Source: Haladaptatus sp. ZSTT2 (GTDB lineage Archaea > Halobacteriota > Halobacteria > Halobacteriales > Halococcaceae). Taken from it: a DNA stretch of 64,000 nt. The stretch is taken from positions 1-64,000 of the forward strand of contig NZ_JBAMHQ010000001.1 of the NCBI RefSeq assembly GCF_037081775.1, given 5' to 3'. The first letter of the stretch is position 1. Each line of letters opens with the position of its first letter. The position numbers and the translations under genes were made by a program. Positions 26,899 to 36,442 of this stretch are shown here, piece after piece. The notes beneath the pieces are model-generated. The model was given only the letters and a program-made list of their open reading frames with translations, was not told the DNA's origin and did not search any database.

Positions 26899-27268
26899 CT
26901 GTTTTCACACTGTTCGTCCGTTCGTCTACCACTCTCTCGCCTGGCGATTGCTCCTACGCGACAGACGCCAATCCTGAGTTTCTCGCCGCCAAACAGGTGT
27001 TTGGAGACATACTATTTTGTTTCCGTACGCGCACGCACGCGGAAAGTATTAAAATTAATTTGCGCCGAACGTCGCCGTTTCGATTGTCGCAAATGAGAAC
27101 TCGTCCTCTATCTGCCGTTTACTGGCGTCTCAGTTCACCTCTGGTTTGTTTGTGCTGAACAGACTTCTGACAGTCACTCTGCAATTCGACTTGTGTATGT
27201 GGGTTTCTCCATTTCCACCAATTGTTCGAGGGGGAAACGGCTATGTGCCAACGGTTCATGGTTCACAC
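26899..27268. other. Intergenic region ahead of the IclR regulator
   Basis: The 370 bases hold no supported gene. Visible are a dyad, TTTCCG (27020-27025) and CGGAAA (27040-27045), and an A/T block TATTAAAATTAATT (27047-27060). This may be a promoter, but it is more than 200 bases before the chosen start, so either the leader is long or a nearer promoter is used. Confidence 0.4.
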
Positions 27269-28084
27269 ATGGCTGAACTGCCGGGCGACCGCTCTTCTCG
27301 AACCTTACAGACGGTGAGCACGTCGGCCGACATCATCACCACGCTCGTCGAACTCGACGGTGCTCGAGTGACCGAACTTGCGAACCACCTCGACCTCTCG
27401 AAAAGCGCCGTCTACAACCACCTCACGACGCTTCGCCAGAAGAACCTCGTCGTCAAATCCGGCGACGACTACGAGTTGAGCTATCAGTTCCTCCTCCTCG
27501 GAGAGTACGTTCGCAATCGCTCACAGCTATACAGGGTCGCCCGCCCCGAGCTCGACCGCCTCGCAGAGGAGTGTGGCGAGTACGTCCACCTCTCGACCGA
27601 ACAACACGGCCTCGGAATCAACCTCTACAAGGTCCACGGTCCGAAGGCAGTCGGGAGCGACTATCAGACTGCAAAGCTTCAGAAGCCGGATTACTTACAC
27701 TACTCTGCGACTGGCAAGGCACTCCTCGCAGAACTCCCGCGAGAGCGCGTCGATAGCATCGTAGAGCGTCACGGCCTCGTCTCGCGAACCGCAAACACAA
27801 TCACCACGCCAGAGGCGCTGCACGAAGACTTAGAACGAATCTGCGAGCGTGGCTATTCGTGTAACGATGAAGAGGAAATCGAGGGGTTGCGAGCCGTCGG
27901 GGCACCCATCTGCGACCGCGAAGGAACCGTTCTCGGGTCGCTCAGCGTCTCCGGGCCGACCAGCCGCCTCAAAGGCGACCGCTTCCACGAAACGATTCCG
28001 GAACTCGTGATGAGTACGGCGAACGTCATCGAGGTCAACATCAATATGTCAGATCAGAGTTCGAACCTGCCGAATCTGTCGTAG
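27269..28084 (+). CDS. IclR family transcriptional regulator
   Basis: A 271-residue regulator. The N-terminal winged helix-turn-helix spans about residues 12-75, with the recognition region LDLSKSAVYNHLTTLRQKNLV. The IclR effector domain spans about 85-260: YVHLSTEQHG, HYSATGKALLAELP, RGYSCNDEEEIEGLRAVGAPI and the SVSGP strand. IclR proteins respond to small organic acids or amino-acid derivatives. It lies downstream of the M20 hydrolase and opposite NhaC and is the likely controller of this locus. The start at 27269 precedes the homologous region by 12 residues. Confidence 0.9.
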   Translation: MAELPGDRSSRTLQTVSTSADIITTLVELDGARVTELANHLDLSKSAVYNHLTTLRQKNLVVKSGDDYELSYQFLLLGEYVRNRSQLYRVARPELDRLAEECGEYVHLSTEQHGLGINLYKVHGPKAVGSDYQTAKLQKPDYLHYSATGKALLAELPRERVDSIVERHGLVSRTANTITTPEALHEDLERICERGYSCNDEEEIEGLRAVGAPICDREGTVLGSLSVSGPTSRLKGDRFHETIPELVMSTANVIEVNINMSDQSSNLPNLS

Positions 28085-28277: not shown

Positions 28278-29780
28278 TCAGTCGTCGCCGAGCGACGCGA
28301 TTGCGCCTTTGAGACCAGCCTGCGTCTCATCTGTCTTCTTCGTAATCCGCCAGCCGGTCAGCCCCATTGTGATGAGGATGAGCGGGGAGAGGAATCCGAG
28401 GAAGTAGTACGGCGCGTAGCCTTGGAGTCCCATCGAACCGGCGAACGGTGCGACACCGAGGACACCGGTCATGTAGATTGCACCGGCGTTCCACGGGATG
28501 AGGGCGCTCGTCGTCGTCCCGGCGGCTTCGATACCGCGCGAGAGGTTGCGGCTCTCTAAGTCGAAATCGTCGTAGAGCCCGCGGAGGCTCATCCCTGGCA
28601 CGACGATACTCATGTACTGCTCTGCGGCGAGGATGTTCATGCCGAGTGCGGAGGCAGCCGTCCCAATCGTAAGCCCCGCAACCGACGTGATGGCCTTGCT
28701 CAGGTGGTGGGTCAAGACGGCGATTACCCCAGTGCGTTCTAAGATGCCGCCGAGCGAAAGCGCGGCGACGACGATAGTAATCGTCCACGCCGAATCACCC
28801 ACGACGCCGCCGGAAGCGAGTAGTCCGTTTACGAGTTCAGAGCCGGTCTCCGGGGAGGTTCCGTACATCGGCACTTCCCACGCGGCGACGAAGTTCGCAA
28901 CCGTGAGCGGCCCTTGGAGGAAAAACTGCGTGAACACGCCCGCGAAGATGCCTGCACCGAGTGCTGGCAAGGCGGGGAAGCCACTCAGTGCGAGGCCGAA
29001 AGTGATGAGCAGCGGAAGGAAAACGAGCGGCGAGAGATTGTAGGTTCCCGCAATCGCTGATTGGATGTTGCCAACGCTCTCTGCTGGAATCGCGCCAGCA
29101 GCGTTGAGGCCGAGGATTGCGTAGAGGACGAGTGAAATCCCCATCGCAATCGACGTGCCCACGCGCATGGTGCGGACGTGGGTCATGAGGTCGGTGTTGG
29201 TGACCGCAGCGGCGAGGTTCGTCGTATCAGAGAGCGGTGAAATTTTGTCGCCCGTGTACGCACCCGTGAGGATGGCACCGGCGGTCATCTGTTCGGGGAC
29301 GCCAAGCCCGGCTCCGATGCCGATGAATGCAACGCCGAGCGTCCCGGCGGTGGTCCACGACGAGCCAATCGCGAACGCGACGATGGCCGCGAGCAGGGCA
29401 GTCGCGGGGAGGAACACCTGTGGGTTCAAGATGTCGAGACCGTAGTAGATGAGCGCGGGAATCGTGCCCGACCCCGTCCACGTCGCGATGAGCAGGTAGA
29501 TGATGAAGATGATGAGTATCGCTTGCATCCCCATGCGCAGCCCATCGACGATGCCTTTGTACATGCGGTTCCACGAGATTCCAATCCAGTAGCGTCCGAC
29601 AAGCCCGGTGAGGACGATGCCCCACAACAGCGGCATATGGGCGTCGAGGCCAAGTCCAATTGCCCCGACGCTCAGGAAGGTGAGCATTCCGAGTACGGGC
29701 ACGAGCGCCTGTAACAGAGTCGGTCGTTCCTCGACTGGAATGTCGTCGTACGATAGCGGTTCGAATGACAGTGTTGCCAT
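28278..29780 (-). CDS. Na+/H+ antiporter, NhaC family
   Basis: A 500-residue polytopic membrane protein of the NhaC family. There are about eleven hydrophobic segments, and the family signature GAYTGDKISPLSDTTNLA lies in the middle, with AIGSSWTTAGTLGVAFIG before it. NhaC proteins exchange Na+ for H+; some members exchange organic acids such as malate and lactate. Its position facing the IclR regulator within the transporter/carbamoylase locus makes an organic substrate worth considering. No other ion-homeostasis genes are near. Confidence 0.9.
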   Translation of the reverse strand: MATLSFEPLSYDDIPVEERPTLLQALVPVLGMLTFLSVGAIGLGLDAHMPLLWGIVLTGLVGRYWIGISWNRMYKGIVDGLRMGMQAILIIFIIYLLIATWTGSGTIPALIYYGLDILNPQVFLPATALLAAIVAFAIGSSWTTAGTLGVAFIGIGAGLGVPEQMTAGAILTGAYTGDKISPLSDTTNLAAAVTNTDLMTHVRTMRVGTSIAMGISLVLYAILGLNAAGAIPAESVGNIQSAIAGTYNLSPLVFLPLLITFGLALSGFPALPALGAGIFAGVFTQFFLQGPLTVANFVAAWEVPMYGTSPETGSELVNGLLASGGVVGDSAWTITIVVAALSLGGILERTGVIAVLTHHLSKAITSVAGLTIGTAASALGMNILAAEQYMSIVVPGMSLRGLYDDFDLESRNLSRGIEAAGTTTSALIPWNAGAIYMTGVLGVAPFAGSMGLQGYAPYYFLGFLSPLILITMGLTGWRITKKTDETQAGLKGAIASLGDD

Positions 29781-29914: not shown

Positions 29915-31531
29915 TTACCGGTCAGGCGTCTGCTCTAAGGTTGTCTGCTCAAACTGTTCTCTGAGTCGCTTCTTGTCGAACTTTCCGGTTGCGGTTTTCG
30001 GCACTTCGTCGACGAATAAGATTGTATCAGGGAGCCACCATCGAGGATACGATTCGCTGAGAAATTCTCGCACGTCATCTGCGGTGAGCGTGCTTTCGGG
30101 ACGCAGTTTCAGCGTCGCTGCAGGGCGCTCTTGCCACTTCTCGTGAGGGATTGCGAACACAGCGGCTTCCGTGATTTCGTCGTGGCCCATGAGCTGATTT
30201 TCGAGTTCGATGCTCGAAATGTACTCACCGCCGCTTTTGATGATGTCTTTGTCCCGGTCTACGAGTTCGATGTAGCCGTGGCCGTCTACGGTGACGATGT
30301 CGCCCGTCTTGAGCCAGTCGCCCTCGAAGCTGTCTGCGGTTGCGTCCGGTCGGTTGTAGTATTCGTCTACGACGGTCGGCCCGCGAATCCAGAGTTCGCC
30401 AAACGTTTCGCCGTCCCACGAGATCTCCTCGCCTTTGGTGTTCACGACCTTCATGTCGAGACTCGGCGCGAGAATCCCCTGCTTGGCTCGTTTTTCGAAC
30501 TGGCGTTCTTGTGTCCATTCGCGCATGTAGGACTTCGGCCGCGACACACTGGAGATACTCATCGTTTCAGTCATCCCCCACGCTTGGTCGATGGTGACGC
30601 CGTACTTTTCTTCGTAGGTGCGCATGACGCCTTCGGGGACGGCGCTGCCTCCGGCGACGATGCGGTCAAGCGAAGAGATGTCCACGTCGTGGTCCTCGAG
30701 ATATTCAAGCATGGAAATCCACACTGTTGGGACGCCGCCAGTGAGTGTCACCCCCTCTGCTTCGATGAGATGAGCGAGTTCTTCGACAGTTGGAGCGGGG
30801 CCGGGAAACACCTGCTTTGCGCCCGCGACGGTCGCCGCGTAGGGAAGCCCCCACGCGTTGACGTGGTACATCGGGACGGTGTGGAGCACCACGTCGGATT
30901 CGTCGATGCACATGCTCGCAGGCGACATGAGCATCATGCCGTGGGCGTACAACATCGACTGGGTGTACTCGACGCCCTTTGGCTTGCCCGTGGTGCCCGA
31001 GGTGTAACACATCCCCGCAGGCTGGTCGGGGGCAAGTTCTGGCCACTCGACCGTCGCATCTTCGACCACGATATCGTCGTAGGCCACCGCGGGGAGGGTA
31101 GTGTCGGGGACGGAATCGCTCATGACCACGACGTGCTCGACGCAATCGATGTCGTCCCAGACGCGTTCGACCGTTTCGAGTGGGTCGCCGGGGTCTACGA
31201 GCAACACGGAATCTGCGGCGTCGTTTACGATGTACGAGACGTGACTGTCTGGGAGGACGGCGTTGATGGTATGCAGCTGTCCGCCGGAGAGCGGGACGGC
31301 GAAGTACGCCTCGTAGTGGCGGTGGTGGTTGTAGCCAATCGTGCCGACGCGCGCACCCTCCGCGACGCCCAGTTCTGCCAGCCCGACTGCGAGTCCGGTG
31401 ACGCGGTCTGCGAACGCCGCATACGTGTATCGTTGATCACCATCGGGCGGACACGACACGACTTCTTTCTCCGGAAAGAGCTGTGTCGCCCGGGTGAAAT
31501 ACGACAGAAGCGTCATGTTTGAAGATGGCAT
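29915..31531 (-). CDS. Acyl-CoA ligase (long-chain-fatty-acid-CoA ligase type)
   Basis: A 538-residue ANL-superfamily enzyme that activates a carboxylic acid to its CoA thioester through an acyl-AMP. The AMP-binding motif is YTSGTTGKPKGVE; then GGVPTVW, the A5 motif WGMTETM, the A7/A8 region WLKTGDIVTVDGHGYIELVDRDKDIIKSGGEYIS (the last Gly starts the hinge), and the A10 lysine in PKTATGKFDKK are present. The TATA-like TTATATG near 31561-31567 fits the ATG at 31531. It is divergent from the crotonyl-CoA reductase-like gene, so the two may serve one acid. Confidence 0.92.
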   Translation of the reverse strand: MPSSNMTLLSYFTRATQLFPEKEVVSCPPDGDQRYTYAAFADRVTGLAVGLAELGVAEGARVGTIGYNHHRHYEAYFAVPLSGGQLHTINAVLPDSHVSYIVNDAADSVLLVDPGDPLETVERVWDDIDCVEHVVVMSDSVPDTTLPAVAYDDIVVEDATVEWPELAPDQPAGMCYTSGTTGKPKGVEYTQSMLYAHGMMLMSPASMCIDESDVVLHTVPMYHVNAWGLPYAATVAGAKQVFPGPAPTVEELAHLIEAEGVTLTGGVPTVWISMLEYLEDHDVDISSLDRIVAGGSAVPEGVMRTYEEKYGVTIDQAWGMTETMSISSVSRPKSYMREWTQERQFEKRAKQGILAPSLDMKVVNTKGEEISWDGETFGELWIRGPTVVDEYYNRPDATADSFEGDWLKTGDIVTVDGHGYIELVDRDKDIIKSGGEYISSIELENQLMGHDEITEAAVFAIPHEKWQERPAATLKLRPESTLTADDVREFLSESYPRWWLPDTILFVDEVPKTATGKFDKKRLREQFEQTTLEQTPDR

Positions 31532-31580
31532 TTGGTACTGTCACAGTTGTCCCATTGTAACATATAACACGTAGGGGTAC

Positions 31581-31645
31581 AGACAAAACTTGTCTAGTTA
31601 CAATTTCTGAAAATTCAGCATACACAACAATGGTGATTAACCATT
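31581..31645. promoter_or_regulatory. Three evenly spaced dyads between divergent acyl-CoA genes
   Basis: AGACAA-AAC-TTGTCT (31581-31595), CTGAA-AA-TTCAG (31607-31618) and AATGGT-GATTA-ACCATT (31629-31645) are all perfect in their arms. Their centres are about 24.5 bases apart. They lie between the two divergent start sites and could be operators. The three sequences differ from each other, so part of this may be chance. Confidence 0.35.
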
Positions 31646-31700
31646 CTATTTGATTTTGCACAAGTTATGTTTATCACTTTGCTCCCGGAAGGTGTGAGCC

Positions 31701-33578
31701 ATGGGAACGATTGAACCGCCAGAACTCGCTTCCGATGACCTCGTTTCGGACCTCATCGAAGCCGGTGACCTGCTCCCAATTGGCGCACCGTTCTATCCTG
31801 GCGAAACTGAGATTCCACCGTACCAGCTTGCATGGGGTATCATTGGCGACGACGACGCCGAACCGATTCACGGCGAACCGCTCGCAGACGAGGCAGAAAA
31901 GGAAATCGTCGTGCCGGTCGAAGAGCCCGGCCCGATGGACGCCCTCGTCTACTTGCTCACCTCTGAAGTCAACTTCAACGACTCGTGGGCCATCGCGGGC
32001 GACCCCGTTTCGACGTTCAAAGGCCACGACACGCCGTGGCACATCACCGGCTCTGGCGGCCTTGGCTACGTCGTCTCCGTCGGCGAAGCAATCGAAGAAC
32101 AGGGACGCATCGAAGTTGGCGACCTCGTGAACGTCTATGCCGGGCAGTTCGACCCAATCGACCCGAAAGCATCGAAAGACCCGATGTTTTCGAACTACGA
32201 GATTCAAGGCTACCAGACGCCGGATGGCTCCCACCAGCAGTTCATGGTCGCCCAAGGCACACAGCTGTTCAAACCACCGCAGAACTTAGATCTCACCGAG
32301 GCCGGTTCCTACATTCTTACGATGGGCACCATCTATCGCGCCCTCTTTACCACGCTCGATGTGGAGCCGAACTCGAACCTCTTTGTCGAAGGCGCATCAA
32401 CAGGGACGGGCCGCGACGCCGTCGTGATGGCCGCGAGTCAGGGCCTCAACGTCACGGGTCTCGTCTCCAGTGACGAACGCGCCCAACGCGCCCGCGACGC
32501 CGGTGCGTCCGCGACCATCAACCGCAAAGATGCCGCGCTCGTAGACGCCATGACCGACGTGCCAAACGACCCCGACGAGTGGGCCGAGTGGGAAGCAGCC
32601 GGGGAACCGCTCCTCGACTCGTACCGCGACCAAAACGACGGCGAACTCGCAGACTACGCCGTCTCGCACGCGGGCAAACTCGCCTTCTCGCGGACCTACC
32701 AACTGCTCGGAGACGGCGGCCGTCTCACGTTCTACGGCGCGTCGACGGGCCACGAACTCTCCTTTATCGGGAAAGGTGGCAGCGTCGAACCCGAGGAGAT
32801 GTTCTCGCGCGCCAACCTCCGTCCCGGCCAGTCGGTGCTCGTCTGGTACGGAACGCCAGAAGACGTGACGGGCACCGAAGACGCGGTTGCCGAGGACGCC
32901 ATAGCATCCGCGCTCGCCAGTCGCGCCCGCGTCGCCGTCATCACCGAAACCGACGAACAGTCAGACTACGTCGAAGACGAGTACGACGTGACGGGCGTCA
33001 TCAGCCTCGAAACGCTCGCCGAAGAGAACGACTCCTTCGAGTACATGGACTCGTTCCCCGACATCGACGACCCACGCAATCTTGGCGCGTACATGGGCAA
33101 CATGTTCAAGCCACTCGGCATCGCCCTCGGCGGCATCCTGAAGACGCCGAACAACCCGCGCGGTAATCCCGACGTGGTGTTCGAGCGCGCAGGCCAGAAC
33201 ACGCTCGCCGTCTCGTCGATGCTTTGTTTCCCATTCCAGGGGAAGATCGTCTTCGCAGAGGGGATGGCAGGGCGGCGCTACTCGTTTTACGCCCCACAGG
33301 TCTGGATGCGCCAGCGGCGTATCTACATGCCATCGACCGAAATCTTCGGCACGCACATGAAAAATCCGTGGGAGGTGGCCCAGATGAACGAGGCCATCGA
33401 ACTCGGTGCCTTCGGCGTTCCAGAAACCCACCTCACCGCGTGGGACGACGCGCCGAAAGCCCACCAAGACATGTGGGACAACACCCACGAGGAAGGCTCC
33501 TACGTCATCAACCATGCGCTGCCTGAAGACGGGCTTGCGGACGAAGAAGCGCTCCTCTCCGCCTGGGACGACCAGTAA
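31701..33578 (+). CDS. Crotonyl-CoA reductase/carboxylase-like MDR dehydrogenase with a duplicated Rossmann region
   Basis: A 625-residue member of the medium-chain dehydrogenase superfamily, close in pattern to crotonyl-CoA carboxylase/reductases, which are about 430 residues. Shared with that family are WHITGSGGLGYVVSVG, DPMFSNYEIQGYQTPDGSHQQF, the NADP loop GASTGTGRDAV and, at the C-terminus, VFERAGQNTLAVSSM and GTHMKNPWEVAQMNEA. Between about 300 and 500 there is extra sequence: AVSHAGKLAFSRTYQLLGDGG closes one Rossmann fold, and a second, Gly-motif-poor copy follows. TTTATC near 31670 is a plausible TATA. Likely substrates are enoyl-CoAs such as acrylyl- or crotonyl-CoA. Confidence 0.75.
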   Translation: MGTIEPPELASDDLVSDLIEAGDLLPIGAPFYPGETEIPPYQLAWGIIGDDDAEPIHGEPLADEAEKEIVVPVEEPGPMDALVYLLTSEVNFNDSWAIAGDPVSTFKGHDTPWHITGSGGLGYVVSVGEAIEEQGRIEVGDLVNVYAGQFDPIDPKASKDPMFSNYEIQGYQTPDGSHQQFMVAQGTQLFKPPQNLDLTEAGSYILTMGTIYRALFTTLDVEPNSNLFVEGASTGTGRDAVVMAASQGLNVTGLVSSDERAQRARDAGASATINRKDAALVDAMTDVPNDPDEWAEWEAAGEPLLDSYRDQNDGELADYAVSHAGKLAFSRTYQLLGDGGRLTFYGASTGHELSFIGKGGSVEPEEMFSRANLRPGQSVLVWYGTPEDVTGTEDAVAEDAIASALASRARVAVITETDEQSDYVEDEYDVTGVISLETLAEENDSFEYMDSFPDIDDPRNLGAYMGNMFKPLGIALGGILKTPNNPRGNPDVVFERAGQNTLAVSSMLCFPFQGKIVFAEGMAGRRYSFYAPQVWMRQRRIYMPSTEIFGTHMKNPWEVAQMNEAIELGAFGVPETHLTAWDDAPKAHQDMWDNTHEEGSYVINHALPEDGLADEEALLSAWDDQ

Positions 33579-34050: not shown

Positions 34051-35352
34051 TCAGCGGCCGACGTTCGCCGCGCGCTCGACGATGTCTTCACCGTACAGGT
34101 CGGCCAAGTCGTCGTGCTGGTCTGGGCGATTCTCGTAGACGTCTTGGAACAGCGCGATTGGCGTCATCGCGGCCTGGAAGGTGGCTTCGTCCCACATCCG
34201 GTCTTTGCTGATGTCGATGTCGACCTCACCGATGCGAATCGTCGCAGATTGGGTGATGGCGATTGCACCTCTGCCCGCGTCACGTGCCGTCTCGAACTCC
34301 TCCATCGAGTCGACGATGTCGTCCATGCTCGGGACGTAGACGGTCAGATTCAACAGCTCCTCGCGGAGTTCGTCTTCTGTGAGTTGCTGCTCGTCGGTGC
34401 CGACGCGGAGAAGGTAGCCGTCGCCGGTTGCTTCGACGGACACGCGGTCACCGTCGTACACCTGCACGCCGTCTTCGGGCGTGAGTTCGACCCGACGGCC
34501 GCCAGCTTCGATGTGCCAGCTTCCGGTCTTCGGTGGGAGTGGCCCCTTGTTCGCTTCGACGACTTGACCGGGCGTGAGCGACCAGATGCCGAGCATCCCT
34601 TTGGCCTGATTCTCGGTCATGCGGGTGTGGTAGCCCTCCACGTCGCGGATGTTGTCGTAGGGACCGTCGACCGCGATGAGGCCGGCAGCACTCGCCGCGC
34701 GCGAGGTGTTGTGTCGCAGTTCGGGCCACGGCGGGAGCGACCCGGTCGGCGTCATCCCGCGCATGTCCTTCGTGTAGTCAACCTCGCCGTCGACGAGCAT
34801 GAACAGGCGTTCTAAGTTATTCGTTGGCTTGCCCATCTCGTCGCGGAGGTGGCCCATCGCCAGCTCGGCCTCGCCGCTTTCGACGATGACGGACATGTTG
34901 ATGCTGCCCTCTGGCAGGCCGTGTTCGTGTTCCACGATGGTGATGAACTCGTCTGCTTTTTTCCAGTCGTCAATATCACCCACTTCGGGGATGACGAAGC
35001 CGTCTATGTGCTCGATTGCACCGCGTTCCGGGTCTGCGATTTCGAGCATGTGTTTGAATCCCTGATAGCGGGTCGACGGGCTGTCGCGGTGCCAGACGAC
35101 GCGCGGGTGGATTTCGCCAGGGAACTCTGCGCCGCCTTCGGAGATGACGTCGATGATGTTTGCTGCGCCTTCATCGCGCATCGAGGGGGCGGTTGCGTCT
35201 TCGTTGTCCGGCACCCACACGTCGGGGGCTTTCATGCCGCGGAGCTTGATGGCGCTCCGGAGCATTTTGGCTGAATCGTCTTCTCCTTCCACCGCCGTTG
35301 GTGTGGTGAAAAATGTTCGCACGAACTGTCTGCCGTGTATTCGTTCAGTCAT
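34051..35352 (-). CDS. aceB: Malate synthase, haloarchaeal type
   Basis: A 433-residue enzyme condensing glyoxylate with acetyl-CoA to malate. It starts RxHGRxFVRTFFTTPTAVEGEDDSAKML in the pattern of the haloarchaeal malate synthase, a form distinct from bacterial AceB/GlcB and related to the CitE/malyl-CoA lyase group. APDVWVPDNEDATAPS, SVIVESGEAELAM and a C-terminal domain with SATIRIGEVDIDIS follow. The length equals the characterised Haloferax-type enzyme as I recall it. It is 76 bases downstream of aceA on the same strand, forming the glyoxylate-bypass operon. Confidence 0.92.
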   Translation of the reverse strand: MTERIHGRQFVRTFFTTPTAVEGEDDSAKMLRSAIKLRGMKAPDVWVPDNEDATAPSMRDEGAANIIDVISEGGAEFPGEIHPRVVWHRDSPSTRYQGFKHMLEIADPERGAIEHIDGFVIPEVGDIDDWKKADEFITIVEHEHGLPEGSINMSVIVESGEAELAMGHLRDEMGKPTNNLERLFMLVDGEVDYTKDMRGMTPTGSLPPWPELRHNTSRAASAAGLIAVDGPYDNIRDVEGYHTRMTENQAKGMLGIWSLTPGQVVEANKGPLPPKTGSWHIEAGGRRVELTPEDGVQVYDGDRVSVEATGDGYLLRVGTDEQQLTEDELREELLNLTVYVPSMDDIVDSMEEFETARDAGRGAIAITQSATIRIGEVDIDISKDRMWDEATFQAAMTPIALFQDVYENRPDQHDDLADLYGEDIVERAANVGR

Positions 35353-35428: not shown

Positions 35429-36442
35429 TTAGTCGTCGGATTCTGCGAACCCTTCGGAGGATTCGATGCGCTCTCTGGCGAGTGGGTCGAACTGCTTTTC
35501 GATGTCCTGGTAGCGTGGGACGTTCGAGAGTTCGTGGTGGCTCTCGGTTGGGTGGCCGATGTACTTCTGTTCTAAGTCGAACTGCGCCTGTTCTGCGTTC
35601 TCGGCTAAGTTCTTCATGTCCTCGTAGGCCGCGTACGCACCGGAGTGGAGCGCGAAGAGGGTGATGAACTGGTACTTGTAGCCGAGGTCACCGAGCTCTT
35701 GGAAGGTGAGCGGGTCTTCCTGTTCAGACCAGCGGAACGATGACGAGTAGTTGAACGCGAGCTTGAGGTCTGGGTGGGTCTCGTGAATCGTCTCTGCGTA
35801 GTTGACGGCGTCTTCGCGCGATGGGTCTGGCATCTCTGGCCAGACGAGGTCGACGCCAGCGTCGGCGTAGATGCGCCCGCGCTCTAAGTGTTCCTCCCAG
35901 TCGCCGTTCGCAGAGCCGTAGGCGTCCGTGCGGGCGATGATGATGGTATCTTCTGACTGCTTTGCGTCCACCGCGGCCTCGAAGCGGGCGCGGGCTTCGT
36001 CACGCGAGACGATTTGCTTGCCCGCGATGTGGCCACAGCGCTTTGGCGAAACTTGGTCTTCGATGTGGACGGCGGCGACGCCTGCCTTCTCGTACTCTCG
36101 CACCGCGCGTCGGACGTTGTGGATGCCGCCGTACCCCGTGTCACAGTCCGCGATGACCGGCAGGTTCGTGGCTTCGCACATGCGCTTTGCGTTCTCGACC
36201 ATCTCGGTCATCGTGACCATTTCGAGGTCGGGGAAGCCAAACTGGCCAAGCACGGTCGAGTAACCGGACATGTAGGCTGCGTCGTGGCCAGCCATCTCGG
36301 CGAGCCGAGCGTCTAAGGCGTGATAGAGGCCAGGCGCGAACACGTAGTCCTGGTTGTTGAGCTTGTTTCGGAGTTCGCGGGCTTTCGGGTTGTCGATGTC
36401 TTTGATGTCGAAGTTCGTGTCGGTGATGTAGTCGTCTAACAT
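35429..36442 (-). CDS. aceA: Isocitrate lyase
   Basis: A 337-residue PEP mutase/isocitrate lyase superfamily enzyme that splits isocitrate to succinate and glyoxylate. Motifs are [27 protein letters not shown] with the metal-binding Asp, [14 protein letters not shown] with the catalytic Cys in KRCGH, and RTDAYGS. The Lys-Arg-Cys-Gly-His motif supports isocitrate lyase over other family members; 2-methylisocitrate lyase remains possible. The ATG overlaps the stop of a small upstream frame, and aceB follows. Confidence 0.93.

Follow-up and report, generated by a model that had tools for sequence, protein, structure and literature searches.

Identification of the encoded protein

The question raised by this locus is what kind of enzyme carries a crotonyl-CoA reductase-like sequence with an internally duplicated Rossmann segment, as was claimed for it in the first-pass annotation. 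The window (the whole analyzed stretch of DNA, 64,000 nucleotides) belongs to a haloarchaeal genome of 3.23 Mb in 4 contigs, designated G000. The open reading frame 31701–33578 on the forward strand is closed by a stop codon and encodes a protein of 625 amino acids; the frame, its coordinates, and the motifs quoted in the first-pass annotation were all correct. The homology and architecture of the protein, its duplication, its clade, and its gene context were established by computation.

In a phmmer search of PDB sequences, residues 16–622 matched residues 1225–1839 of chain A of 6eqo (E = 3.5e-202, about 50% identity). This structure, solved in 2018, shows the propionyl-CoA synthase (PCS) from Erythrobacter sp. 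NAP1, a trifunctional enzyme with the enoyl-CoA reductase (ECR) as its C-terminal domain. It was the sole full-length match, far ahead of the runner-up, crotonyl-CoA carboxylase/reductase (Ccr) 4gi2 (E = 2.9e-49). The AlphaFold2 model also matched 6eqo best (Foldseek, VIA-align: Z of 33.0, rmsd of 3.9 over 439 residues; Z of 17–19 for Ccr). Since 6eqo ranked first in both the sequence and structure searches, the protein is a free-standing homologue of the PCS ECR domain. The full-length model had a mean pLDDT of 61, with values below 50 for residues 74–190 in the catalytic part; because of this poorly modelled region, active-site geometry was not read from the model.

The protein shares with the PCS ECR domain, in addition to full-length homology, both Rossmann copies with the Gly-rich loop in the first one only, and the conserved VNFND, GSH, and GTH motifs. 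It differs from PCS in belonging to a separate clade and in lacking the acyl-CoA synthetase and hydratase domains: the reading frame ends after 625 codons, so that synthetase, hydratase, and reductase are not joined in one chain. No other PCS was found in G000, and no relative of the reductase was found in the viral contigs searched. Public records label the relatives only as "zinc-binding dehydrogenase".

Outside PCS, the nearest family is Ccr (TIGR01751; 4gi2, AntE, 6na3), which has the same medium-chain reductase fold but one Rossmann domain instead of two. The AcuI/YhdH acrylyl-CoA reductases (MDR012) belong to the same superfamily, and the protein likely shares their reaction; however, their sequence similarity to the protein is very weak (14.7 bits against a cut-off of 440 for NF051456 and 21.6 against 297.25 for TIGR02823), and they have no duplication.

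The polypeptide consists of an N-terminal catalytic part, Rossmann 1, Rossmann 2, and a C-terminal return of the catalytic part (Table 1). In this last part, His552 aligns with the histidine of the Ccr GSH motif and is invariant in 24 homologues. The TGTG loop, D94, H178, and H552 are invariant across the stand-alone and PCS forms.

Table 1. Features of the reductase gene and its surroundings (window coordinates)
Feature	Coordinates	Strand	Basis
IclR-family regulator, nearby	27263..28084	+	NF045644 and IclR-type models, under cut-offs
NhaC/ArcD-type antiporter behind ligase	28278..29780	-	NF052307, 727 vs 650 bits
AMP-forming acyl-CoA ligase, divergent neighbour	29915..31531	-	NF004837, over cut-off
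Intergenic region between ligase and reductase, 169 bp, divergent, conserved in two congeners	31532..31700	.
Stand-alone PCS-type enoyl-CoA (acrylyl-CoA) reductase, predicted, 625 aa	31701..33578	+	phmmer, Foldseek/VIA to 6eqo
N-terminal catalytic (GroES-like) part of medium-chain reductase, residues 1–199	31701..32297	+	Ccr 4gi2 15–272 vs residues 20–285
Asp94 of VNFND; invariant in 24 homologues; corresponds to residue 1302 of 6eqo and to a Gly of Ccr 4gi2	31980..31982	+
Gln172 of GYQT; aligns with Ccr pocket Glu (4gi2 GYET)	32214..32216	+	4gi2 alignment
Rossmann 1 (NADPH-binding, predicted), residues ~200–371	32298..32813	+	Profile vs Ccr 4gi2 185–341, E 1.2e-17; model
Nucleotide-binding loop EGASTGTG, residues 230–237; T234, G235, T236, G237 invariant	32388..32411	+	Alignment of homologues
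Rossmann 2, degenerate, residues ~372–545	32814..33335	+	Profile self-comparison; Ccr 4gi2 303–354; block-alone model
Rossmann 2 first strand and loop WYGTPEDVTGTED, residues 382–394, without Gly-x-Gly; Y383, G384, D394 invariant	32844..32882	+
C-terminal return of catalytic part, residues 546–625	33336..33575	+	4gi2 300–410 vs residues 488–605
Haloarchaeal malate synthase AceB, downstream context	34051..35352	-	NF041315, 833.7 vs 780 bits
Isocitrate/methylisocitrate lyase family protein, downstream context	35429..36442	-	TIGR02317, 192.5 bits, under cut-off

Tandem duplication of the Rossmann segment

We analyzed the repeat both in the single sequence and at the profile level, using an alignment of 24 homologues. 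Self-alignment, proposed in the first-pass annotation as a check, was unconvincing for the single sequence: the Smith–Waterman score of 48 was matched by 31 of 2000 shuffles, and the alignment was misregistered. This weakness would fit a protein with only one Rossmann fold, interrupted by an unrelated insertion, the duplication being a chance resemblance; the coverage by Ccr of residues 20–285 and 488–605 as two separate stretches and the absence of the Gly-rich loop from block 2 point the same way. The profiles, however, gave a clear result against such an insertion. Residues 200–371 and 372–560 scored 33.6 against each other in hhalign, a value reached by none of 200 column shuffles (mean of 14.1, standard deviation of 2.6, maximum of 22.8). 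The block 1 profile matched residues 185–341 of Ccr 4gi2 and that of block 2 matched residues 303–354; because the two overlap, Ccr residues 303–341 have two counterparts in the protein.

Structure prediction, the other proposed check, agreed: in the AlphaFold2 model, the same order of elements occurs at residues 226–356 and again at 378–518. Block 2 modelled alone folded as a Ccr-type Rossmann domain: it aligned to 6eqo 1580–1751 (Z of 19.4) and, from their first strand, to several Ccr cofactor domains (Z of 11–13; for AntE 198–342, Z of 13.4 and rmsd of 2.7 over 130 residues). The tandem duplication of the Ccr-type Rossmann domain is real, as the first-pass annotation had claimed; the insertion, which it had named as the refuting outcome, did not occur and is a most improbable explanation.

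The second copy lacks the Gly-x-Gly loop (VWYGTPEDVTGTED), again in agreement with the first-pass annotation. Its mean column identity is 66% versus 68% for the first copy; being conserved like the first, it is no decaying relic. This conservation, together with its own invariant Y383, G384, and D394, points to a positive role, be it structural or of another kind. The duplicated layout is common to PCS, and the architecture itself is therefore not new; the remark that no description of it was known was mistaken, as the ECR domain of 6eqo has the same one.

Reduction versus carboxylation

The first-pass annotation considered reduction more likely than carboxylation because of the GYQT motif. 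That preference is supported. At the Gln172 position, the 24 homologues have Q (8), E (13), D (2), or N (1), and the NAP1 PCS carries Glu in the 6eqo alignment. The NAP1 enzyme is mainly a reductase, with carboxylation being a weak, latent, promiscuous side activity (PMC10176493, PMC8252502). The GYQT argument is thus weak, since the position varies and the NAP1 reductase itself has Glu there. Membership in the PCS-ECR family combined with the invariant Asp94, replacing Gly of Ccr 4gi2, is the better argument. We take the Asp at this position to be the residue changed by engineers.

The residues of the Ccr CO2 pocket are presumably Asn, Phe/Tyr-Glu, and His. Asn, Tyr171, and His552 are kept in the protein, and Glu is replaced by Gln172, a position variable in PCS. 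The retention of both Asn of VNFN and of His552, the fact that Ccr proteins are the closest relatives outside PCS, and the promiscuous carboxylation by the NAP1 enzyme (PMC10176493) would fit a true crotonyl-CoA carboxylase/reductase or an acrylyl-CoA carboxylase with CO2 fixation as the main reaction. We regard this as very unlikely: the TIGR01751 score (208.2 bits) is far under the Ccr cut-off of 378.55, Gln172 stands in place of the pocket Glu, Asp94 is invariant where Ccr 4gi2 has Gly, and the closest characterized relative is mainly a reductase.

Gene neighborhood and proposed function

The arrangement of the reductase divergent to an AMP-forming ligase, with the antiporter behind the latter, was kept in all three congeneric genomes (G000, G022, and G111). 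The ligase resembles DmdB, the 3-(methylthio)propionyl-CoA ligase (6ihk, E = 2e-108), with an NF005426 score of 508 bits against a cut-off of 822, below the DmdB-type level; its resemblance to the PCS ligase domain is weak (22–26%). A 6-bp inverted repeat at 31629–31645 was rejected as an operator, being absent from G111. No hydratase gene adjoins the reductase in G000, and we failed to find a PCS-type enoyl-CoA hydratase (ECH) in that genome, where the best match had 42% identity over about 190 amino acids. Two methylmalonyl-CoA mutase matches over cut-off were present in G000. At G000:C1:270743-272854 and G022:C1:29315-31402, the matches to ADP-forming CoA ligase homologues run through a single in-frame TAG stop.

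In three of the four stand-alone loci outside these three genomes (L045/L054, L046, and L047/L055), the ECR gene is paired with genes of an ADP-forming CoA ligase and an ECH. Such sets occur in Haloferax marinum, on Haladaptatus plasmids, in G034, and in Natribaculum luteum, and some of them add a BCCT transporter. The cassette ECHs are not PCS-like (26–36% identity). The cassette on a plasmid of Haladaptatus sp. YSMS36 (L054, 6410–17723) comprises an IclR regulator, ECH, ADP-forming CoA ligase, GbcA-like oxygenase, ECR, and BCCT transporter; that of Haloferax marinum (L045) is similar, and Haladaptatus adds a second ECH and an FAD oxidoreductase. The GbcA-like (glycine-betaine-monooxygenase-like) oxygenase of these cassettes scored 153 bits against 670. 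The make-up of these cassettes suggests that a betaine- or DMSP-like compound is broken down by way of an acyl-CoA. The Natrinema PCS gene adjoins methylmalonyl-CoA mutase genes.

The C-terminal domain of the Chloroflexus PCS is an NADPH-dependent acrylyl-CoA reductase (PMC4029986), and a 3-hydroxypropionate route to propionyl-CoA was proposed for Haloferax mediterranei (PMC7137286). We predict, with a probability of about 0.8, that the protein is a stand-alone PCS-type ECR which reduces acrylyl-CoA to propionyl-CoA with NADPH, Rossmann 2 being structural; what we infer here is the substrate, the use of NADPH, the inefficiency of any carboxylation, and the part played by the second copy. Separate partner enzymes would supply the acrylyl-CoA: the ADP-forming CoA ligase and ECH in several relatives and, in G000, G022, and G111, probably the divergent AMP-forming ligase. 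NADPH would bind to the first Rossmann domain and pass its hydride to acrylyl-CoA, and the propionyl-CoA formed would enter central metabolism via the methylmalonyl-CoA route. Rossmann 2, having lost the nucleotide-binding loop, is most likely a structural element shaping the active site and the subunit interface, and its C-terminal part would lead to the strands and the histidine closing the catalytic site.

The BCCT, glycine-betaine-monooxygenase-like, and FAD oxidoreductase genes in the cassettes suggest that the physiological enoyl-CoA might differ in some hosts. A reductase of the same fold acting on another enoyl-CoA, be it crotonyl-CoA or a product of betaine, carnitine, or DMSP breakdown, would be in line with the Haladaptatus and Haloferax marinum cassettes, in which a BCCT transporter and a GbcA-like oxygenase accompany the ECH and ADP-forming CoA ligase genes. 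We consider it unlikely, since the protein keeps every residue that is invariant in PCS, an enzyme whose reductase domain has acrylyl-CoA as its substrate. The bacterial DMSP lyase DddX, a member of the ADP-forming ligase superfamily adjoining a BCCT gene, yields acryloyl-CoA (PMC8163506); a link to DMSP would thus still end in acrylyl-CoA.

Distribution and phylogeny

Relatives of the reductase were detected in 20 of the 392 genomes of the order. Stand-alone forms, 65–94% identical, occur in seven genomes, one of them frameshifted; most of the remaining genomes encode a full PCS of about 1800 amino acids with 50–54% identity. The frameshifted gene (L048, 9206–11222, reverse strand, contig C13 of G325) is split into two frames by a frameshift or an assembly error and adjoins genes for an ADP-forming CoA ligase and a BCCT transporter. 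In Natribaculum luteum (G290), a single 862-kb plasmid carries a full PCS together with a stand-alone gene and a broken copy (L041, L047); the broken copy is a degenerate ECR fragment (L041, contig C2, 275434–276189) with four TAA stops.

One genome (G011, contig C101; L044, 1484–4351, reverse strand) encodes an ECH-ECR fusion of 956 amino acids without the acyl-CoA synthetase domain. Its ECR part is 69% identical to the window protein and belongs to the same clade, and it differs from the window protein by a PCS-type hydratase domain in front; this domain shares 40–49% identity with the ECH domain of PCS, and the domain order is that of PCS. The fusion is an intermediate between the stand-alone ECR and full PCS.

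In the tree, six stand-alone forms and the ECH-ECR fusion formed a haloarchaeal clade (support of 100/100) apart from the bacterial and archaeal PCS. The fusion branched first inside it, with modest support for the inner fork (85/77). A search of the relatives' genomes with TIGR01751 gave no protein over the cut-off and therefore no Ccr outgroup from that source; the tree, having no outgroup, fits the assembly and the dismantling of PCS alike.

Implications

The unusual feature of this locus is the ECR domain standing alone in haloarchaea, as the doubled layout was already present in the 6eqo structure of 2018. The claim of a new architecture is thereby corrected, and a gene labelled "zinc-binding dehydrogenase" gains a specific likely function.

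Acrylyl-CoA is toxic, and the reductase of PCS works inside a closed compartment that holds it. Tentatively, and with less confidence than in the predicted activity itself, the haloarchaeal ECR and ECH-ECR forms may be surviving partial PCS, either building stages or dismantled remnants, with the reductase working in the open and Rossmann 2 perhaps having a role of its own. If so, the reductase would operate outside the chamber, its ligase and hydratase partners would be exchangeable, and Rossmann 2 may serve, e.g., as an interface or in CoA binding. The stand-alone and ECH-ECR forms are natural material for studying the need for the PCS reaction chamber as well as the origin or break-up of the three-enzyme fusion, and synthetic CO2-fixation work could make use of a small, free-standing reductase in which the potential for carboxylation is latent.
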